A stretch of DNA of 64,000 nucleotides from Salinigranum rubrum. GTDB lineage: Archaea > Halobacteriota > Halobacteria > Halobacteriales > Haloferacaceae. The notes beneath the pieces are model-generated. The model did not search any database. It was not told the origin of the DNA and worked only from the letters and a program-made list of their open reading frames with translations. Location: the NCBI RefSeq assembly GCF_002906575.1, contig NZ_CP026309.1:124001-188000 (forward strand), given 5' to 3'. The position numbers and the translations under genes were made by a program. The first letter of the stretch is position 1. Each line of letters starts with the position of its first letter. Shown here piece after piece: positions 1,916 to 17,346 of the stretch.

Positions 1916-3067
1916 TCACGGCCGCTTCAGCGCGCCGTCCGCGTCGAACAGACTGTGGCTGTCCTTCGGTTCGCCGGGGTGAGCGCGCGCGGCGTCCTCG
2001 TCGAAGGTGACGCCGAGACCGGGTTCGTCCGGGACGGCTATCGCCCCGTCTTCGACCTCGAACTCGTGCTGGATGACCTCGTCGCCCCACGGGACGTCCC
2101 GGCTCATGTGTTCGAGGATTTCGAGGTTCTCGAACCCCGCACAGAGGTGTAACGAGGCGGCGGTGCTCACGCCCGCGTTCGGGTTGTGCGGCGCGATGGT
2201 CATGTAGCGTGACTTCGCGATGGCCGCGGCGTGCTGGATGTCCTGGAGGCTCCCGTAGTTCGTCACGTCGGGCTGGATGATGTCACAGGCCTGCTTCCGG
2301 ACGATCTCTTCGGTCGTCTCGTTGTTGTAGATGCGCTCGCCCGTGGCGACGGGCACGTTCACGTGCTGGGTCACGTCCGCCATCACCTCTCTGTCCTCCA
2401 GTTCGACCGGCTCTTCGAGGAACATGATGTCGTACTCCTCCAGGGCGTTCGCCACCTCGATGGCCCCGCGTCGGGTGAACCGCCCGTGGCAGTCGAGGCC
2501 GATGCCGACGTCCCAGCCGACGGCGTCGCGGACCGCTTCGAGGAGGTCCGCGACCTCCTGTATCTGGTCGTCCGTCAGCGAGTACTCGTAGTGAGCGAAC
2601 GGATCACACTTGAGCGCCGGATACCCCTGCTCCTCGACGGCCTTCTTCGCGTGGTGCGCGTAGTTCTCCGGCGTCCGCTCGCCGATGTGCCACCCGTTCG
2701 CGTACACCGGTATCTCGTCGTGGACCTTCCCGCCGAGGAGCTTTCACACGGGTTCGTCGTAGTACTTCCCGGCGATGTCCCACAGCGCGATGTCGATGGC
2801 GGCCGCGACGGCGTTGATGAGCTTCCCGCCGCGCCACGCGAACGGGTAGCGCCTGAGTTTGCGCGAGATGGCCTTTCGGTTGAGCGGGTCCTCCCCGATG
2901 ACGTAGTGCTTGTGCGCCTCCGTCGTCGCTTCGAGCGCGGCGGTCAACCCCTCCCCGCTCAGCGCCTCGCCGATGCCGTGTATCCCCTCGTCCGTCTCCA
3001 CCTTGACGAAGAACCAGTTCCGCCAGTCGGCGTCGACGACGAACGGCTTGACAGCTGTGATGTTCAC
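1916..3067 (-). pseudogene. Enolase-superfamily (MR/MLE) sugar-acid dehydratase interrupted by an in-frame TGA
   Basis: Reading from ATG 3065-3067 gives 107 residues of a dehydratase N-terminal capping domain ending YYDEPV, then TGA at 2744-2746. The same frame then continues without shift (KLLGG...) for the whole TIM-barrel domain to TGA 1916-1918. Counting the stop position as a residue, the product would be 383 residues, the family's normal size. The barrel keeps GLDCHGRF (first metal Asp), FLEEP, ATGER and APHN motifs, so it resembles galactonate/gluconate-type dehydratases. The stop replaces a residue of the usual PVYxLLGG motif; a one-base change would restore Cys, Trp, Arg, Gly or Ser. 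A GTG at 2705-2707 could restart only a truncated barrel lacking the capping domain. Either a recent pseudogene or a sequence error. Confidence 0.85.
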
Positions 3068-4917: not shown

Positions 4918-6249
4918 ATGCTCGAGTTACCGGACGCCGACCGACTCGCGGCCCTGTCCGACGCAACGCCCGCAGACCTGCCGGACGTCGCGCTCCTCGA
5001 ACACGTCCGGGACCACCCCCAGGTGGACGACGTGGCCGCGGCGACGCGGACGGCGCTGGACGAGATTCCGGCCCTCGCCGCGCTTTCCGAGGGCGCAACG
5101 GTCGGCCTCACGGCGGGGAGTCGCGGCATCCACGACATGCCGACGGTCCTCCGCACGACCGTCGAGTACCTCGACGCGCGGGGGCTGGAGCCGTTCGTCT
5201 TCCCGGCGATGGGCAGCCACGGCGGAGCGACGGCGGAGGGCCAGCGCGAGGCGCTCGCCGCGCTCGGCGTCACCGAGGAGACCATGGGCTGTGAGGTCCG
5301 GTCGTCGATGGCGGTCGAGCGCGTCGCCGACGACAGCGAGGGGCGACCGATATTCGCCGCCAGCGACGCGCTCGCGGCCGACGCCGTCCTCCTCCTCAAC
5401 CGGGTGAAGGCCCACACCGACTTCCGCGGCCGCTACGAGAGCGGTCTCGCGAAGATGGCCGTCATCGGTCTCGGGAAGCAGCGCGGCGCGGAGATCACAC
5501 ACAACGTCGGCCTCGTCGAGGGGCTGGACGAGGTGATTCCCGAGCGCGCCGCCGCGCTGTTCGAGGAGACACCTGTGGTCGGTGGTGTCGCCATCGTCGA
5601 GAACGCCGACGACCGGGCGGCACACGTCGAGGGCGTCCCGGTCGACGAGATACTCGACCGCGAACCCGACCTCCTGGCTCGCTCGAAGGAACTCCTGCCG
5701 ATGCTCCCGACCTCGAACCTCGACCTCCTGGTCATCGACGAAATCGGCAAGGAGATTTCCGGCACGGGGATGGACACCAACGTCGTCGGCCGGGTGTGCT
5801 ACCACAACCAGCCCGAACCCGAGGAGCCGTCGTACACGCGCATCTACGTCCGCGGCGTCACCGAGGCCTCACACGGCAACGGCATCGGCATCGGCCTCGC
5901 GGACTTCGTCCACGCGGACCTCGTCGCCGACCTCGACCTCACCGAGACGTACGTGAACGTCATCACGAGCGGGGAGGTCTCCCGGGCGCGCATCCCGCTC
6001 ATCGCCGAACGCGACGACGTGGCCCTCCGGGTGGCGACGTCGACGACGGGCGTGCGCGACCCGGCGGCCCTCCGGTTCGTCCGCGTGCCGAACACGCTCG
6101 ACCTCGGTCGGTTCGTCGCCTCCGCCCCGGTCGTCGAGGAACTGGCCGACCGCGACGACGTGCGCGTCCTCGAACGCCGCCCGTTCGAACTCGTCGACGG
6201 CGACCTCCCACCCGACCCCTACGCGACCGACGACGAGCGTAGTCGCTGA
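4918..6249 (+). CDS. LarA-like (DUF2088, lactate racemase N-terminal domain) protein
   Basis: 443 aa. The central segment FVFPAMGSHGGATAEGQREAL and the following LLNRVKAHTDFRGRYESGLAKM and IGLGKQRGAEITHNVG are typical of the LarA/DUF2088 superfamily, in which nickel-pincer racemases of 2-hydroxy acids and uncharacterized relatives occur. His and Lys residues in those motifs are candidates for the cofactor/active site, but I cannot show that the pincer-binding lysine is equivalent. The rest of the C-terminal half (PTSNLDLLVIDEIGKEISGTG onward) is long and well formed. Its place in a sugar-acid cluster suggests epimerization or racemization of a hydroxy acid (inference). The same-strand amidase ends 115 bp upstream; a convergent UspA gene follows. 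Confidence 0.8.
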   Translation: MLELPDADRLAALSDATPADLPDVALLEHVRDHPQVDDVAAATRTALDEIPALAALSEGATVGLTAGSRGIHDMPTVLRTTVEYLDARGLEPFVFPAMGSHGGATAEGQREALAALGVTEETMGCEVRSSMAVERVADDSEGRPIFAASDALAADAVLLLNRVKAHTDFRGRYESGLAKMAVIGLGKQRGAEITHNVGLVEGLDEVIPERAAALFEETPVVGGVAIVENADDRAAHVEGVPVDEILDREPDLLARSKELLPMLPTSNLDLLVIDEIGKEISGTGMDTNVVGRVCYHNQPEPEEPSYTRIYVRGVTEASHGNGIGIGLADFVHADLVADLDLTETYVNVITSGEVSRARIPLIAERDDVALRVATSTTGVRDPAALRFVRVPNTLDLGRFVASAPVVEELADRDDVRVLERRPFELVDGDLPPDPYATDDERSR

Positions 6250-6299: not shown

Positions 6300-6728
6300 C
6301 TACTCGTCCATCACCGCGACGACCGGGACGTCCGCTTCGAGGAGGATGGACTGGGTGACGCTCCCGAACAGCGCCTTCCCGACGGGCGTTCGCTTCCGCC
6401 CGCCGATGACGAGGTACGAAGCGTCCGACCGCGAGACCTCTCCCTGGAGTTCCTCGACCACGTTCCCGACGAGTCCGCGCGTCGTAACCCGTCCCGGTCG
6501 GTCGGTCGACGCTTTGACCACCGTTCGCGCCGTCGACTCGGCGTCGCGCTGTCCGTCCTCGACGGTGTACGGTTCGTCGCGCTGGACTTCGCCGCGTTTT
6601 TCGAACTCGTCCTGTTCGAGGACGTGAACCACCACGAGTTCGTCGTCGTACGCCTCCGCGAGGTCCTGACCGACGGTGACGACGCGGTCCGGTTCGTCGT
6701 CGCCGTCGACTGCTGCCAGTATCGTCAT
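6300..6728 (-). CDS. Universal stress protein (UspA) family
   Basis: 142 aa, a single Usp domain. It starts MTILAAVDGDDEPDRVV, the usual beta-1 strand, and ends with VIGGRKRTPVGKALFGSVTQSIL, which carries the G-2x-G-9x-G(S/T) ATP-binding pattern of nucleotide-binding Usp proteins. An upstream in-frame ATG at 6776 was rejected: a TATA-like box (revcomp GTTTATAC, 6753-6760) lies 28 bp before the ATG at 6726-6728, giving a leaderless start. Soluble cytoplasmic stress or regulatory protein; unlikely to be part of the catabolic pathway around it. Confidence 0.92.
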   Translation of the reverse strand: MTILAAVDGDDEPDRVVTVGQDLAEAYDDELVVVHVLEQDEFEKRGEVQRDEPYTVEDGQRDAESTARTVVKASTDRPGRVTTRGLVGNVVEELQGEVSRSDASYLVIGGRKRTPVGKALFGSVTQSILLEADVPVVAVMDE

Positions 6729-6752
6729 CGGGTCGCAGGTCACTACAGAGAC

Positions 6753-6760
6753 GTATAAAC
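6753..6760 (-). promoter_or_regulatory. TATA box of the universal stress protein gene
   Basis: GTATAAAC on the plus strand reads GTTTATAC on the coding strand, centred 28 bp before the ATG. It sets the start codon of a leaderless transcript. Confidence 0.6.
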
Positions 6761-6858
6761 CTTGTCGAGCGTTCACCTCCCGCGTGCCCTGGCCTCGATT
6801 CGCGCCCCGTTCTTCCCCCAGCCGAAGAGCTAACTCCCCCTCGCGTGAGTCACGCAGT

Positions 6859-7866
6859 ATGTCGGAGACAGAGACGACCGTCTACCACGACGCGGACGCG
6901 GACCTCTCCGTGCTGAGCGACCGGACAATCGCCGTCGTCGGCTACGGCAACCAGGGCCGCGCACAGGCACTGAACCTCAGAGACTCGGGCGTCTCGGACG
7001 TCGTCGTCGGGAATCGCGCCGACGACTCGCGTCAGCAAGCGCGCGAGGACGGCTTCGAGGCGTTCGACATCGCGGGCGCGGTCTCCAGGGCCGACGTCGT
7101 CTTCTTACTCATCCCCGACGAGGTCGCCCCGGCGGTGTACGAGGAGGCCATCGAACCGAACCTCTCCCCGGGCGACCTCGTGAACTTCGCCTCCGGCTTC
7201 AACGTCACCTACGGCTACATCGAACCCGCGGACGACGTGGACGTCGTCCTGCTCGCCCCGCGCATGATCGGGACGATGGTGCGCGACCTCTACACCCAGG
7301 GCCGCGGCGCGCCCGCGCTGTTCGCCGTCCACCAGGACGCGACCGGCGAGGCCCACGAGGTCGGTCTCGGCCTGGCGAAGGGCATCGGCGCGACGCGCTC
7401 GGGAGTCGTCGAGTCGACGTTCGAGGTCGAGACGACGACCGATCTGATGAGCGAGCAGGCGCTGTTCCCGCTCTTCGCCCACGCCATCATGGCGAAGTAC
7501 CGCGTCGAGGTCGAGGCGGGCGTGCCGCCGGAGGTCGCCCTCCTGGAGTCGTACCTCTCGCGGGAGATGGCGTACATCTTCGAGCAGGCGGCGACGAAGG
7601 GGATGATCGAACAGCTCCTGTTGCACTCGCGGACGAGTCAGTACGGCCAGTTGAAGGGGCTGGAGTCGTTCGACCCCGAACCGATGGTCGCGTACATGCG
7701 CGACCGACTCGACGCCATCCAGTCCGGCGCGTTCGCCGAGGAGTGGCGGGCCGAACAGCGCGAGGGGACGCCGCACCTCGACGAACTGTTCGAGACGTAC
7801 CGCCAGTCGGCGTTCGTCCAGCGCGAACAGGAGACGATGGAGACGCTCGGCCTCGGCGACCAGTAG
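6859..7866 (+). CDS. Ketol-acid reductoisomerase-like protein with an altered active site
   Basis: 335 aa, similar in length to class I ketol-acid reductoisomerase (KARI). The N-terminal Rossmann domain has IAVVGYGNQGRAQALNLRDSG, close to the canonical KARI NADPH motif, and the C-terminal knotted helical domain keeps TTDLMSEQALF (the Asp and Glu metal ligands) and an ESYLSRE helix. Two catalytic positions differ: the conserved SHGFN or AHGFN histidine is Ser here (FASGFNVTYG), and the lysine of the APK motif is Arg (LLAPRMIG). True KARI makes branched-chain amino-acid precursors, but these changes and the position between a LarA-like gene and a sugar-acid dehydratase suggest a different 2-keto or hydroxy acid substrate. 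The start ATG at 6859 gives the usual N-terminus; the long upstream extension has no family similarity. Confidence 0.75.
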   Translation: MSETETTVYHDADADLSVLSDRTIAVVGYGNQGRAQALNLRDSGVSDVVVGNRADDSRQQAREDGFEAFDIAGAVSRADVVFLLIPDEVAPAVYEEAIEPNLSPGDLVNFASGFNVTYGYIEPADDVDVVLLAPRMIGTMVRDLYTQGRGAPALFAVHQDATGEAHEVGLGLAKGIGATRSGVVESTFEVETTTDLMSEQALFPLFAHAIMAKYRVEVEAGVPPEVALLESYLSREMAYIFEQAATKGMIEQLLLHSRTSQYGQLKGLESFDPEPMVAYMRDRLDAIQSGAFAEEWRAEQREGTPHLDELFETYRQSAFVQREQETMETLGLGDQ

Positions 7867-7925: not shown

Positions 7926-9098
7926 GTGTCACCGACCATCACGAAGATCGAGTCGACAGAGTTCGCGTTCCCGGTCGAGGACGCGGGGACGAGCCCCAAC
8001 TCGTTCAGCCTCGTCTACGATCCCGGCGAGACGCTCCACCGGAAACTGTTCGGCATCAAAATCCACACCGACGTGGGCGTCACCGGCGAGTACGTCGGCG
8101 GGAACTCCCCGGCGGCCGCCCAGATCAACCTGTTCGGTCGGTTCCTCGTCGGCCGCAACCCCCTCGACCGCGAGCGCATCTGGAGCGAGGTAAAACGCGC
8201 GCTCCGCAAGTACGACCGGATGGGGATGGGTCCCATCGACATCGCGCTGTGGGACTTCGCGGGCAAGTACTACGACGCGCCCATCCACGAACTGCTCGGC
8301 ACCTATCGAACCCGACTCCCCGCCTACGCCTCCTCGTACGACGGCGACATGAACGGCGGCCTCGACTCGCCGGAGGCGTTCGCCGACTTCGCCGAGGACT
8401 GCCTCGACCGGGGCTACCCGGCGTTCAAACTCCACGTCTGGGAGCAGGAGGCGTGGGGCGACGTCGACCGTGCGGTCGAGACGGTTCACGCCGTGGGCGA
8501 ACGCGTTGGCGACGAGATGGACCTCATGCTCGACCCCGCGTGTCAGTACGAGACGTTCGCCGAGGCGCTGAAAGTCGGGAAGGCCTGCGACGAGCAGGAG
8601 TTCTTCTGGTACGAGGACCCCTACCGCGACGGCGGCATCTCCCAGCACGGCCACGCGAAACTCCGCGAGCGCCTGGACACGCCCCTGCTCCTGACCGAGC
8701 ACGTCCGAGGGTTAGAGCCGCACACGGACTTCGTCGCCAACGGCGCGACCGACTTCGTCCGCGCGGACCCCGAGTACGACGCGGGCATCACGGGTGCGAT
8801 GAAAATCGCTCATGTGGCTGAGGGGTTCGGCCTCGACGTCGAGTACCACGCGCCCGGCCCGGCCCAGCGACACCTCATGGCCGCCACCCGGAACACGAAC
8901 TACTACGAGATGGCGCTCCTCCACCCCGACGTGAAGAACCCGGTGCCGCCGGTCTATCGGGGCGACTACGCCGACCAACTGGACTCCATCGACGACGACG
9001 GCACCGTCTCCGTTCCCGATGGGCCGGGACTCGGCGTCGACTACGACTGGGAGTACATCGAAGACCACCGGACGGGGAGCACCCACGTCTACGAGTGA
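7926..9098 (+). CDS. Enolase-superfamily sugar-acid dehydratase (MR/MLE), copy A
   Basis: 390 aa from GTG 7926, matching the start of its paralogue at 27375. The N-terminal capping domain runs to about residue 125 and the TIM barrel follows. Metal-site candidates are the Asp of MLDPACQ, Glu of WYEDP and Glu/His of LTEHVRG; AFKLHVW (K-x-H) replaces the classical K-x-K base motif, and EYHAPGPAQRH holds the C-terminal histidines. It presumably dehydrates an aldonic acid to a 2-keto-3-deoxy acid, but the exact substrate cannot be read. It follows the KARI-like gene by 59 bp on the same strand and ends 4 bp from the convergent MFS gene. Two blocks of DNA (126 and 77 bp) are identical to the gene at 27375. 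Confidence 0.85.
   Translation: MSPTITKIESTEFAFPVEDAGTSPNSFSLVYDPGETLHRKLFGIKIHTDVGVTGEYVGGNSPAAAQINLFGRFLVGRNPLDRERIWSEVKRALRKYDRMGMGPIDIALWDFAGKYYDAPIHELLGTYRTRLPAYASSYDGDMNGGLDSPEAFADFAEDCLDRGYPAFKLHVWEQEAWGDVDRAVETVHAVGERVGDEMDLMLDPACQYETFAEALKVGKACDEQEFFWYEDPYRDGGISQHGHAKLRERLDTPLLLTEHVRGLEPHTDFVANGATDFVRADPEYDAGITGAMKIAHVAEGFGLDVEYHAPGPAQRHLMAATRNTNYYEMALLHPDVKNPVPPVYRGDYADQLDSIDDDGTVSVPDGPGLGVDYDWEYIEDHRTGSTHVYE
8208..8333 (+). repeat. 126-bp block identical to 27657-27782
   Basis: Exact duplicate inside the two MR/MLE paralogues, covering the DRMGMGPIDIALWDFAGKYY region and following helix. Identity includes every third codon position, while flanking sequence diverges, so recent gene conversion is the simplest reading. 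A second identical block of 77 bp is at 8709-8785 and 28161-28237. Confidence 0.9.
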
Positions 9099-9102
9099 CC
9101 CC

Positions 9103-10356
9103 CTAGTCGACGTCCATCACCGCCGCGCCGACAGGGAGGCTCTCGGTGAGCGTGACCGCGACGAGCGCCGCCGCAGAGAACGCCAGGATGCTCGCGCCGA
9201 GAAAGGCGCTCTCGAACCCGACTACGCTCGCGGCGCCCCCCACCGCGACCGGTCCGACGATGCCGCCGAGGCCGCGGGCGGTCGACCGGAAGCCGATGAG
9301 TTCCGATTCTCTCTCGGCGGGCGAGACGTCGCCGATGAACGAGACGGCACCGACGCGCAGCAGCGAGAACGCCAACGCGAGCGTGAGCATCCCGCAGACG
9401 GCGACCGCCACCTGGCCGACGTGGCTCTCGACGGTGCCCGCGCCGGCGAGGAGCGCGGCGAACGCGCCGCTGCCGGCCATTCCGGCGCTGATGAGCGGTT
9501 TTCGGCCCAGTCTGTCGGCGAGCCCTCCCGAGAGGTACATGAACACCGTCTGCCCGCCGGGGTTGATTGCGAGCAACGCGCCCATCGTCGCCTCCGTGAC
9601 GCCGAGGGTCGAGACGAAGTACACCGGCAGCAGGCTCCCGGTGCCGATGACGGCGAGGTTCCGGAACAACACGGCGACGTAGAGCCAGCGGAGGCCGTGC
9701 GTCCGGAAGTGCGCGCGACCCGCTCGCGTGGGGAAGAGCCGACGGCGAACCTCGCCTGCGACTTCGGCGGCCGACCGCGATTCGGGGGTCGGCGTCGGGT
9801 CGTCGATAGCGAGGACCGCGACGAAGACGACGGCCGTGACCGCCGTCACGACGAGGTAGAGGCTCCACGGAACGAGCAGTCCGAGGAGGAAGCCCGCCGA
9901 CAGTCGACCGACGGTGGAACCGGCCCCCTGGGCGCTGCTGAACAGTCCGATCGACCGCCCGCGCTGTGACGCCCCGCCGAGCGTGTTGACGATGGTCAGA
10001 AGGATCGGCAGGTACGCCGCCGCGAACAGCGAGTAGACGGTTCGAACCACGAGCGGCTCGACGACCCCACGAACGACGAGCAGCGGAAGCGTCGCCAGCG
10101 TCGCGAGTCCGGCGGCGACCAGCAACACCCGCCGGCGCTTCCCGGTGACGTCCGCCAGCGCCCCCCAGACGGGCGCGCAGACGGTCCACCCGAAGTAGAA
10201 GGCGGTGGCGACGAGGCCGACACTGAGCGGGGACCCGCCCGCCCGGCCGATGTAGACCGCCATCGCGGTGGCCATCAACATGGGGCTTCCCTTGCTCGCG
10301 GCGGCCGCGGCGACGAGCGCGAGTCGCTGCCCGCGACTGGTCGACGGTGCCGTCAC
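9103..10356 (-). CDS. Major facilitator superfamily transporter
   Basis: 417 aa with about twelve hydrophobic segments. The cytoplasmic loop after segment 2 carries GALADVTGKRRRVLLV, the MFS motif A (GxxxDxxGRR type), and a second copy GGLADRLGRKPLI follows the middle loop. It begins at GTG 10354-10356, which overlaps the stop of the aldolase gene by 4 bp (GTGA), and it ends in TAG 4 bp from the convergent dehydratase gene. As the last gene of the dehydratase/aldolase/transporter operon it is the likely importer of the sugar acid those enzymes use (inference), though drug-efflux MFS proteins have similar architecture. Confidence 0.88.
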   Translation of the reverse strand: MTAPSTSRGQRLALVAAAAASKGSPMLMATAMAVYIGRAGGSPLSVGLVATAFYFGWTVCAPVWGALADVTGKRRRVLLVAAGLATLATLPLLVVRGVVEPLVVRTVYSLFAAAYLPILLTIVNTLGGASQRGRSIGLFSSAQGAGSTVGRLSAGFLLGLLVPWSLYLVVTAVTAVVFVAVLAIDDPTPTPESRSAAEVAGEVRRRLFPTRAGRAHFRTHGLRWLYVAVLFRNLAVIGTGSLLPVYFVSTLGVTEATMGALLAINPGGQTVFMYLSGGLADRLGRKPLISAGMAGSGAFAALLAGAGTVESHVGQVAVAVCGMLTLALAFSLLRVGAVSFIGDVSPAERESELIGFRSTARGLGGIVGPVAVGGAASVVGFESAFLGASILAFSAAALVAVTLTESLPVGAAVMDVD

Positions 10357-11138
10357 CGACTATCCGTCCCGCCGGCACGTTCTCGGGCACCGTCGAGCGC
10401 GTCGGTGACGCCGTCGGCCACGTAGAGCGAGTCGACGCCGGCGACGAGGTAGTCGACGCCCCAGTCGAGCCGTGCGGCCCGCGAGTCGGCGTCGGTCGCG
10501 AGCGTTCCGACCGCGACGGACGCGTCGTGGGCGGCTTCGACCGCGCGGTCGACCGCAGCGAGGAACCCTTCGTCCTCCCACTCGCCGAACCGCCCCATCG
10601 ACATCGAGAGGTCGACCGGCCCGACGAACACGCCGTCGATGCCGTCGACGGCGGCGATGTCGGCGGCGTTGTCGACGGCGCGTTCCGACTCCAACTGGAC
10701 GTGTCTGACGAGCGTCTCCTCGACCGTCTCGACGTGGTCGGCGAGCGAGCGGCCGTACCCCGTCGCCCGTCCGAGGCCGAGGCCGCGACTGCCCTCGGGA
10801 GGATAGCGCGAGGCGTCGACGATGGCCGCCGCCTGCTCGGCCGTCTCGACCATCGGGACCAAGACGCCGTCGGGGTCGCGGTCGAGCGTCCGCTTCAGCG
10901 TCGTCGGGTCGTCGTCGGGGACGCGGACGACAGACTCCGTCTCGCCGGGCGCGGCGTCGACCGCGCGGAGCATCGCCTCCATCGTCTCGTAGGACATCGA
11001 CGAGTGCTCGGCGTCGAGCACTAGAAAGTCGGGGTCGGCGCTCGCCGATAGCTCCGCGAGTTCGGGGGAGGGAACGACGTTCCACGTCCCCACGAGCGGG
11101 TCGTCCGCCTCGACGGCGCGTTTGAATCGGCCGGTCAT
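10353..11138 (-). CDS. HpcH/HpaI-family aldolase
   Basis: 261 aa. The family motifs are present: FLVLDAEHSSMSYETMEAML near residue 35, VPMVETAEQAAAIV and PPEGSRGLG in the middle, the metal-binding QLESERAVDNA, and GIDGVFVGPVDLSMSMG. These class II aldolases cleave 2-keto-3-deoxy acids or 4-hydroxy-2-keto acids to pyruvate and an aldehyde using a divalent metal. The ATG at 11136-11138 overlaps the stop of the upstream dehydratase (ATGA), and its own stop overlaps the MFS start, so the three genes are translationally coupled. The likely job is cleavage of the 2-keto-3-deoxy acid made by the dehydratase. Confidence 0.92.
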   Translation of the reverse strand: MTGRFKRAVEADDPLVGTWNVVPSPELAELSASADPDFLVLDAEHSSMSYETMEAMLRAVDAAPGETESVVRVPDDDPTTLKRTLDRDPDGVLVPMVETAEQAAAIVDASRYPPEGSRGLGLGRATGYGRSLADHVETVEETLVRHVQLESERAVDNAADIAAVDGIDGVFVGPVDLSMSMGRFGEWEDEGFLAAVDRAVEAAHDASVAVGTLATDADSRAARLDWGVDYLVAGVDSLYVADGVTDALDGARERAGGTDSR

Positions 11139-12355
11139 GCGAACATCGACCCCCGGTCGAACAGGTGCTCGGCGGCGACCGCTTCGTCCAGCCCGATGCC
11201 GAGACCGGGCGCTTCGGGCACCTCGATGTACCCGTCCTCGATGAGCGGGTCGTCCCGGTCGTGGAGGTCGTCCCACCACGGCACCTCGAGCGCGTGGAAC
11301 TCCAGCACGTCGAAGTTCGGCACGCAGGCACCGAGGTGGACGCACGCCATCGTCCCGATGGGTCCGCAGACGTTGTGCGGCGAGAACGTGATGTAGTTCT
11401 CCTCCGCGCGGTTCGCGATGGCCTTCGACTCGGCGAGGCCGCCGCACGTCGTGGGGTCCGGCGTCACCACGTCGACGCCGAACTCGTAGAGGAGGTCTTT
11501 GAACTCGTGGACGCGGAACCGGTTCTCGCCGGTCGCCAGCGGCGTCGACGTCGACCGGGCCACCTCCCGCTGGGCGGCGGCGTTCTCCGGCGGCACCACG
11601 TCTTCGAGCCACAGCAGGTCGTACGGTTCGAGTTTCTGACAGAGGCGTTTGGCGCTGTCGAGCGAGTAGTCCCAGTGACAGTCGAACGCGAGGTCGATGT
11701 CGTCGCCGATTGCCTCGCGGACGGCCTCGACGGCCTCGACCTTGCGACTCAGCGCCGCGTTGCTCACGCGCCCGTTGTACGGGTCCGGGTTGTTGTCGAA
11801 CGGCTGGTCGAGGTCGAACTTCAGCGCCGTGTACCCCATGTCGACGACGCGCTCGGCCTCGGCGGCGTACGCTTCCGGGTCGTAGGTGTCGTCGTCGTGC
11901 GCGCTGGGGTAGCCGTCTTCGAGCGCGAACGCGTCGCCGGCGTGGCAGTCACAGTAGATGCGCACCCGGTCGCGGTACTTCCCGCCGAGGAGCTGGTAAA
12001 TCGGCAGTCCGAGGAGCTTGCCCGTCACGTCCCAGAGGGCGATTTCGATGCCCGAGGCGGCCGTCACCACCTTCCCCGTCGTCCCGCCGTGCCCGGACGT
12101 CTCCTGGACCATCCGGCGGAACAGCCGTTCCACGTCGAGGGGGTTCTCGCCGACGAGGAAGCGCTTCATGTACTCCATAATCTCGGTGACGCCGCCCCCG
12201 CGGTACGACTCGCCGATGCCGGTCACGCCCGCGTCCGTGTGGACGCGGACGAGGTTCCACTCGAAGTTCCCCTCGACGACGCACGTCTCGATGTCGGTGA
12301 TGGCGACGTCGCGCTCCGGCAGCCGGTTCGTCGCGTGGTTGGAGAAGTCCCTCAT
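11135..12355 (-). CDS. Enolase-superfamily sugar-acid dehydratase (haloarchaeal gluconate/xylonate-type)
   Basis: 406 aa. The protein begins MRDFSNHATNRLPERDV and has capping-domain motif GGTTGKVVTAASGIEIALWD. Barrel motifs are ALKFDLD (K-x-D), LAFDCHWDYS (first metal Asp), LWLEDVVPPE, ATGENRF, TPDPTTCGG and FSPHNVCGP (His). This set is close to haloarchaeal gluconate and xylonate dehydratases of the oxidative pentose/hexose pathways; the specific substrate is not determinable by eye. The frame stays open up to 12577, but the upstream 74 codons are Arg/Pro-rich and unlike the family. It is the first gene of a tightly overlapping operon with the HpaI aldolase and MFS transporter. Confidence 0.88.
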   Translation of the reverse strand: MRDFSNHATNRLPERDVAITDIETCVVEGNFEWNLVRVHTDAGVTGIGESYRGGGVTEIMEYMKRFLVGENPLDVERLFRRMVQETSGHGGTTGKVVTAASGIEIALWDVTGKLLGLPIYQLLGGKYRDRVRIYCDCHAGDAFALEDGYPSAHDDDTYDPEAYAAEAERVVDMGYTALKFDLDQPFDNNPDPYNGRVSNAALSRKVEAVEAVREAIGDDIDLAFDCHWDYSLDSAKRLCQKLEPYDLLWLEDVVPPENAAAQREVARSTSTPLATGENRFRVHEFKDLLYEFGVDVVTPDPTTCGGLAESKAIANRAEENYITFSPHNVCGPIGTMACVHLGACVPNFDVLEFHALEVPWWDDLHDRDDPLIEDGYIEVPEAPGLGIGLDEAVAAEHLFDRGSMFA

Positions 12356-12666
12356 CGGAGACTCCGGTCGACCGCGCGGGGGCCGTCGCGTCCGTGTCTC
12401 GTCCGCCTCGTTCCCTCGTCGATTCGGGTTCTCGACCGGCGGTCGGTCGCGCGTACCAGAGGTGTCTCGACCGGCCGCGCTCGTCGTCGGAGCGATTCGC
12501 CTGCCGAACGCGACGCTCCCGTCGCGTTCGGACGTCGCTCTCTCGCCGTGGGCTTCATGCGCCCACCGAGACGGCACTGGCTCTTAGCTATTGCCCCGGT
12601 CGTCGACTCTCGGCTGTCGAATCCTCACCGTTCGGCCCCCCTCCCGACGGCCGTCTGTCGACCCGG
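12356..12666. other. Intergenic region upstream of the dehydratase operon
   Basis: 311 bp between the dehydratase start and the end of the frameshifted membrane-protein gene, both on the minus strand. The promoter of the dehydratase/aldolase/MFS operon should be here, but I see no clear TATA box within 40 bp of ATG 12355; the best AT-rich spot is TTAGCTATTG near 12586-12595. It may therefore have a long leader or an upstream start. Confidence 0.4.
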
Positions 12667-16290: not shown

Positions 16291-17346
16291 TCACAGCCGA
16301 CTGCGCAGGTCGTCGACGACCGCCGTCGTTCCCGACTCGCCGCCGAGGTCGGGCGTCCGCGGCGCGTCGCCGTCGGCCAGTTGCTCGGCGACGGCGTCCC
16401 ACAGGTCGGCCGCGGCCGCCTCCTCGCCGAGGTGGTCGTACAGCATCGAAACCGAGAGCACCGTCGCGAGGGGGTTCGCGACGCCCTGTCCCGTGATGTC
16501 CGGCGCGCTCCCGTGGACGGGTTCGAACATCGACGGCGAGTGTCCCTCGACGTTGATGTTCGCCGACGGGGCCAGCCCCATGCTCCCGCTGACGATAGCG
16601 CCGATGTCGGTGAGGATGTCGCCGAAGAGGTTCGAGGCGACGATGACGTCGAACTCGTCGGGACGGCGCACGAGGTCCATCGAGGCGGCGTCGACCAGCA
16701 GGCGGTCGACCTCCACCTCGGGATACTCTTCGGCCACCTCCTCGACGACCTGGTCCCAGAACACCATCCCGTACGCCTGCGCGTTCGACTTGGTGACGTT
16801 CGTCAGGTGGCCGTCGCGTTCCGTGGCCTCCTCGAACGCGGCGCGAACGATGGCCTCGGTCCCCGCGCGGGTGTAGATAGCGGTCTGGACGGCGACTTCG
16901 TGGCCGTAGCCGCGGTGTTCGTGGCCGCCGATGTCGGCGTACTCGCCCTCGGTGTTCTCGCGGTAGACCACGAAGTCGATGTCGCCGCCCTCGTAGCCGC
17001 GGAGCGGGCTCTCGACCCCTTCGAACAGCACGGACGGCCGCTTGCACACCTGCTGGTCGAACGCCTTCCTGATGGGGAGCATCATCCCCCGGAGCGTCAG
17101 GTGGTCGGGGATGTCGGGGTGGCCGACCGCGCCGAGGAGGATGGCGTCGTACGGCTCTAAGGTCTCGATGGCGTCGTCGGGCATCATCGACCCCTCTTCG
17201 AGGTAGCGTTCGCTCCCCCAGCCGTATCTCGTCGTCTCGACGGAGAACCCGTGTCTGTCGGCGGCCGCTTCGAGGAGTGGGAGCGTCGCGTCGACGACCT
17301 CCACACCGATACCGTCGCCCGGAAGGAGTGCGATTTCGTAGGTCAC
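16291..17346 (-). CDS. Tartrate/D-malate/isopropylmalate dehydrogenase family protein (TtuC/DmlA type)
   Basis: 351 aa. LLPGDGIGVEVV opens the beta-decarboxylating dehydrogenase fold. The distinctive LRGMMLPIRKAFDQQVCKRPS and VVYRENTEGEYADIGG motifs, NVTKSNAQAYGMVFWDQV (catalytic Lys) and DILTDIGAIVSGSMGLAPSANIN (metal Asp residues) match tartrate dehydrogenase/decarboxylase and D-malate dehydrogenase more than leucine-pathway LeuB. It oxidises a 2-hydroxy acid with NAD and may decarboxylate the product. Here it would link hydroxy-diacids such as tartrate or malate to pyruvate or oxaloacetate. It lies 81 bp downstream of the ABC importer ATPase on the same strand and may be its last operon gene. 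Confidence 0.88.
   Translation of the reverse strand: MTYEIALLPGDGIGVEVVDATLPLLEAAADRHGFSVETTRYGWGSERYLEEGSMMPDDAIETLEPYDAILLGAVGHPDIPDHLTLRGMMLPIRKAFDQQVCKRPSVLFEGVESPLRGYEGGDIDFVVYRENTEGEYADIGGHEHRGYGHEVAVQTAIYTRAGTEAIVRAAFEEATERDGHLTNVTKSNAQAYGMVFWDQVVEEVAEEYPEVEVDRLLVDAASMDLVRRPDEFDVIVASNLFGDILTDIGAIVSGSMGLAPSANINVEGHSPSMFEPVHGSAPDITGQGVANPLATVLSVSMLYDHLGEEAAAADLWDAVAEQLADGDAPRTPDLGGESGTTAVVDDLRSRL

Follow-up and report, generated by a model that had tools for sequence, protein, structure and literature searches.

A ketol-acid reductoisomerase paralogue of Salinigranum rubrum belongs to a distinct branch of the family and may act in sugar-acid catabolism

The window analysed here is a stretch of 64,000 nucleotides from Salinigranum rubrum (contig NZ_CP026309.1, positions 124,001 to 188,000), in which all positions below are counted from the first base. 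It carries a gene for a protein with the class I ketol-acid reductoisomerase (KARI) fold, here called KARI2, as is the branch to which it belongs. The features at and around this gene are as follows.

1916..3067, - strand: ENO1, a third gene of the MR/MLE enolase superfamily, broken by an in-frame stop codon
3209..4802, + strand: amidase, start approximate
4918..6249, + strand: LarA-type nickel-pincer isomerase, NPN_iso_grp_22 (496 bits, cut-off 400)
6300..6776, - strand: universal stress protein in the gap that separates LarA from KARI2, from a profile search
6859..7866, + strand: KARI2, class I KARI-fold oxidoreductase, ATG start, 335 aa, with Ser112 and Arg135 at the catalytic His and Lys positions
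7192..7194, + strand: codon for Ser112, within the motif FASGFN, where canonical KARI has His; computed from the residue number
7261..7263, + strand: codon for Arg135, an invariant residue of KARI2 within the motif APRM, where canonical KARI has Lys; computed from the residue number
7938..9098, + strand: MR/MLE enolase-superfamily protein (ENO2), the first gene downstream of KARI2, 5' end approximate
9103..10356, - strand: MFS transporter, from a profile search
10360..11154, - strand: putative HpcH/HpaI-type aldolase
11135..12400, - strand: MR/MLE enolase-superfamily dehydratase-like protein (ENO3), from a profile search

The neighbours had been described in an earlier note, made from the sequence alone, as a LarA-like gene, an amidase and a sugar-acid dehydratase, and this is borne out by the LarA group 22 protein, the amidase and the MR/MLE enolase-superfamily protein. 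Homologues of ENO2 with 72-74% identity are also found near KARI2 in three other genomes (G092, G095, and G104). The aldolase is named from the appearance of its sequence and from an annotated aldolase/citrate lyase gene in one Haladaptatus KARI2 cluster, there being no matches to this CDS in Pfam or NCBIfam. Where ENO1 has its in-frame stop, the S. salinum orthologue has none, and the pair has a dN/dS of 0.08, indicating that the gene is otherwise under strong constraint, so that the stop codon is either a sequencing error or a lesion of recent origin. A tartrate-dehydrogenase-like protein is encoded further along the window (16291-17346, - strand), with 455 bits to TIGR02089, for which the cut-off is 470. 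There are no Rfam matches in positions 1-30000 of the window, and no polyketide-type genes, which a gonydiol cluster around a BurG-type synthase would have, among the window neighbours that were scanned.

The 335 aa ORF matches both KARI domains in Pfam above cut-off (KARI_N 209 bits, KARI_C 91 bits) and TIGR00465 in NCBIfam at 269 bits (cut-off 226), with the narrower KARI models falling below their cut-offs. The AlphaFold2 model has a mean pLDDT of 95, and its top structural match in the PDB is Sso-KARI from Saccharolobus (Sulfolobus) solfataricus (6jd2 chain J, TM 0.91), canonical KARIs matching it at a TM of about 0.9. Six residues, the Mg ligands D195, E199, E230, and E236 and also E191 and S257, show no variation across the 23 KARI2 rows and the 16 canonical rows of the alignment, the roles of the ligands at the two-Mg site of KARI having been described (PMC5940873). 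The fold and metal Asp/Glu are thus retained, as had been proposed; the accompanying "NADPH motif" is better described as a cofactor loop with Asn52 (22 of 23 rows) and Asp55 (23 of 23), residues that suggest resemblance to an NAD-type loop.

When aligned with haloarchaeal and other class I KARIs, the histidine of the (S/A)HG motif is replaced by Ser112 and the lysine of the APK motif by Arg135, as first reported for this gene. Arg135 is present in every one of the 23 KARI2 rows and Ser112 in 18. Other positions are fixed differently in the two groups, with His256 in KARI2 for Val/Ile, Ser260 for Ala, Gln252 for Met, Gln261 for Glu, and Asn31 for Ser, as well as the Asn52 and Asp55 already mentioned, and there is a two-residue insertion in KARI2 between E230 and E236. 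Several of the KARI2-specific positions are in or beside known active-site or cofactor-loop motifs, and His256, Ser260, and Gln252 suggest a pocket that is more polar than that of KARI. The dN/dS between the window gene and its Salinigranum orthologue is 0.28, which, with the conservation of Arg135 and Ser112 across a fully supported clade, indicates that the replacements are due neither to chance nor to decay.

This clade of 23 sequences, Sso-KARI included, is split from the 16 canonical KARIs with a branch support of 100/100, and its members come from haloarchaea, Chloroflexota, a Sulfitobacter plasmid, and S. solfataricus. KARI2 relatives are present in 13 of 170 genomes of the family, 16 of 322 genomes of the order, and 2 of 151 Chloroflexota genomes, with further copies on Sulfitobacter and haloarchaeal plasmids. 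The possibility that the window gene is a singleton or frameshift artefact is rejected, given the 13 copies in the family and the others in different families and phyla that have the same motif. KARI2 is a subfamily of the class I KARI-fold family, not a lone oddity. A 17th match in the order (G294) has the motif and the operon of a canonical KARI, and was rejected, as were a Chloroflexota match from the first scan that is a fragment of a canonical KARI (L004) and two canonical plasmid matches from Streptomyces (H16) and Natribaculum (H10). A back-translated DNA motif search of the whole phylum was too noisy. A KARI homologue on a Rhizobium lusitanum plasmid (H21; L090 9001-10541), with polyketide synthase genes nearby, is in two pieces owing to an apparent frameshift.

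In one haloarchaeal subclade, B (L016, L073-L076, and L091), the motif is SHGYN, with the histidine present, and Arg135 is also found. As this subclade is nested among lineages that have serine, in a tree where the deep branches are long, the histidine may have been regained.

The host has a canonical ilvC elsewhere in its genome (L051), in the arrangement ilvB-ilvN-ilvC-leuC. The same arrangement is seen around canonical ilvC at all 11 loci checked, the host included, and at none of the 23 KARI2 loci is the gene in an ilv operon. The comparison by phylogeny with a canonical ilvC of the same genome, suggested in the earlier note, separates the two, and the window gene is a paralogue beside the host's own canonical ilvC.

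Of the known proteins, Sso-KARI, deposited as "putative KARI 2" (6jcv, 6jd2 and others, 17 entries), is itself a KARI2 member. It has the same Ser and Arg replacements (FASGYN, APRM), the two-residue insertion between the metal Glu residues, His256, TSQYG, Asn in the cofactor loop, and the extended C-terminus, although its identity to the window protein is 43-45%. With the KARI2 profile, in which Sso-KARI is included, it scores 462 bits, and the second-best PDB chain 347. It is deposited as a ketol-acid reductoisomerase, with Mg at pH 8.5. In a 2019 paper Sso-KARI was reportedly active on acetolactate, bispecific for NADH and NADPH, and dodecameric, and is said to have lost activity at high pH, its bispecificity being credited to an unusual Asn. 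Loss of the His and Lys, which had been taken as a sign of a new activity, does not by itself prove a new reaction or the loss of KARI activity, since both replacements also occur in Sso-KARI, reportedly an active KARI.

Canonical class I KARIs (the host IlvC, MtKARI 7q03, and Sac-KARI 5yeq) share with KARI2 the fold, two-Mg ligands, Ser257, and overall length, but have Lys135, His112, Val/Ile256, Ala260, and Met252. The cyclopropanol synthase BurG (7pcc and others) has a KARI fold outside amino acid synthesis, in organisms that also have a canonical ilvC; its Asn48 and Asp51 exclude the NADP phosphate, it reduces hydroxypyruvate with NADH, and a Mg-bridging hydroxide has been proposed as its base (PMC9359912). 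The KARI2 residues Asn52 and Asp55, matched to those of BurG through their identical spacing only, make use of NAD(H) plausible. BurG differs in belonging to a natural-product pathway, and scores 262 bits against the KARI2 profile, under many canonical KARIs.

Among the 22 haloarchaeal KARI2 loci, 12 adjoin sugar-acid markers, against none of 11 canonical and none of 11 random loci (one-sided Fisher p = 3e-5 for 12/22 versus 0/22, kinship among genomes ignored), the markers scored (MR/MLE enzymes, LarA group 22, DUF1537 kinase, PdxA, aldolases, and FGGY kinase) having been taken from KARI2 neighbours, which biases the comparison toward KARI2. The random loci were at round coordinates picked by hand in the same genomes, and genes in other genomes were called by ORF scanning. 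These counts agree with the suggestion in the earlier note that the neighbours point away from branched-chain amino acid synthesis. LarA group 22 is found near KARI2 at six loci, in the window, S. salinum, G021, G565, G480, and G545 (L003, L040, L078, L083, and L084 besides the window), and it occurs in 12 of the 16 genomes that have KARI2, against 123 of 306 (p = 0.008, phylogeny ignored). In four genomes (G092, G095, G480, and G545) there are a DtnK-like kinase of the DUF1537 family and PdxA nearby, while a GntP permease and a DHDPS-family gene are further KARI2 context. Another MR/MLE gene, for which the closest solved relative is 3,6-anhydro-L-galactonate cycloisomerase, adjoins KARI2 in subclade B. 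In Sulfitobacter the order is GntR, KARI2, and ALDH, with a TRAP transporter and glycerate kinase, and on a Chloroflexota contig KARI2 is flanked by Gfo/Idh/MocA and FMN hydroxyacid dehydrogenase genes.

The 10 marker-free haloarchaeal loci are 7 in a synteny block, 2 on Haladaptatus plasmids, and 1 beside rhamnosidases. The synteny block (L041-L042 and L044-L048) is conserved in 7 genomes of two genera, appears to be unrelated, and has no sugar-acid genes. In G549, KARI2 lies between two alpha-L-rhamnosidases (L081 6325-9411 and 16154-19408), which are outside the scored marker set; an ABC transporter ATPase and an amidohydrolase are also nearby. The KARI2 clusters of Halomarina and Haladaptatus (L091 10812-16566 and L092 10476-15503) contain paralogues of eno, of TCP-1 chaperonin, and of an aminoglycoside-phosphotransferase-like kinase, with cupins and MR/MLE genes adjoining. 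Across the KARI2 clusters there is no partner gene common to all, nor is there a single defining pathway among the neighbours; the themes are common while the gene set varies.

The paralogue status of KARI2, the canonical ilvC elsewhere, and the recurrent sugar-acid neighbours make a 2-keto or 2-hydroxy-acid reductase/isomerase the best reading, as had been proposed, although as a member of an inter-domain clade and not as a novelty of one genome. On balance, with somewhat more in favour than against, KARI2 would be an oxidoreductase that depends on Mg, uses NAD(H), and works at C2 of 2-hydroxy or 2-keto acids derived from sugars, in sugar-acid catabolism and not in branched-chain amino acid synthesis, and possibly an oxido-isomerase. 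The thread common to the contexts is C2 hydroxy-acid chemistry, and LarA enzymes isomerise C2, some taking dihydroxy acids including 2,3-dihydroxyisovalerate (PMC11770544), which favours such an oxidoreductase. With D195, E199, E230, and E236 as their ligands, the two Mg ions would bind a polyhydroxylated 2-hydroxy or 2-keto acid through its carboxylate and its C2 oxygen, and NAD(H) would take or give a hydride at C2. Were the base a Mg-bound hydroxide, as in the proposals for KARI and BurG, the His and Lys would both be dispensable for hydride transfer. Arg135, His256, Ser260, and Gln252, in place of Lys, Val/Ile, Ala, and Met, might form a polar pocket for a substrate bearing hydroxyl rather than methyl groups, and KARI2 could then work in series with partners that act on or form C2: the LarA group 22 epimerase, MR/MLE dehydratases, and DtnK/PdxA-type tetronate enzymes.

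Against this reading stand the deposition of Sso-KARI, with the same Ser and Arg, as a KARI, and reportedly an active one, the marker-free loci, the want of a universal partner gene, and the histidine of subclade B. KARI2 might instead be a second, ordinary or backup KARI that still makes dihydroxyisovalerate from acetolactate and is not strict about NADH or NADPH; the Ser and Arg would then be tolerated substitutions, and its place among sugar-acid genes would be incidental. Passage of the TIGR00465 cut-off, the retention of all metal ligands, and the low activity of KARI homologues across varied keto acids (PMC4353338) are in keeping with this, as is Sso-KARI; yet a canonical ilvC is already in its usual operon, KARI2 is never in one, the invariant His256 and Ser260, among other changes, are left to explain, and sugar-acid contexts recur, so that this is rather unlikely, if a serious contender. 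At the other extreme, a decaying or non-catalytic paralogue would account for the replacement of two catalytic residues, but is extremely improbable given the dN/dS, for which a pseudogene was also rejected, the metal ligands invariant across archaea and bacteria, and the Mg complex of the solved clade-mate.

Two narrower forms of sugar-acid chemistry also have to be weighed. A purely reductive role, in which 2-keto acids such as hydroxypyruvate or 2-keto tetronate would be reduced to hydroxy acids for a glycerate or tetronate kinase to take over, has a precedent in the reduction of hydroxypyruvate by BurG (PMC9359912), and glycerate kinase and ALDH are near the Sulfitobacter copy and DtnK/PdxA near others. 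The contexts vary by lineage, however, and nothing favours this role over the broader statement of a C2 oxidoreductase, so that it has only a slight chance of being correct. In the other form, a branched sugar acid would undergo the reverse of the KARI reaction, with C2 oxidation and carbon shift, as in the conversion of D-apionate to 3-oxo-isoapionate. This conversion is the hydroxylated mirror of dihydroxyisovalerate to acetolactate, the skeletons being identical, and the NAD-type loop would favour oxidation. A DUF1537-family kinase is near KARI2 at four loci, the family in bacteria also including 3-oxo-isoapionate kinase, and alpha-L-rhamnosidases or Gfo/Idh/MocA are near some copies. This kinase is, however, closer to the D-threonate kinase model than to the other, though below cut-off, and its pairing with PdxA fits linear tetronates rather than apionate; other enzymes of the apionate pathway were not seen beside KARI2, and a literature search gave no support, making this reading quite improbable. 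If true, it would make KARI2 the KARI-fold counterpart of the bacterial D-apionate oxidoisomerase, which is probably of another family than KARI and possibly analogous in chemistry. In a more general form, KARI2 would be a hitherto unrecognised NAD-linked sugar-acid oxido-isomerase family of archaea and bacteria, in which the KARI carbon shift or its reverse survives on hydroxylated substrates, for instance branched or C4 sugar acids, with His256 as a relocated catalytic His and Arg135 replacing the His/Lys pair; this is a speculative and unlikely proposal.

In public records KARI2 members are labelled ilvC and are assigned by GO terms to the synthesis of valine and isoleucine. As KARI2 is a sister of the canonical enzyme, distinct from it and remodelled at the active site, and often lies amid sugar-acid genes, this automatic assignment to branched-chain amino acid synthesis is probably incorrect for the branch, and Sso-KARI is possibly mis-annotated. 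If the sugar-acid reading is true, the annotation of the whole branch, including the solved and much-studied Sso-KARI, would need to be revisited, and KARI2 would be a second case, after BurG, in which the KARI fold has left amino acid synthesis, this time for a place in ordinary carbon metabolism.
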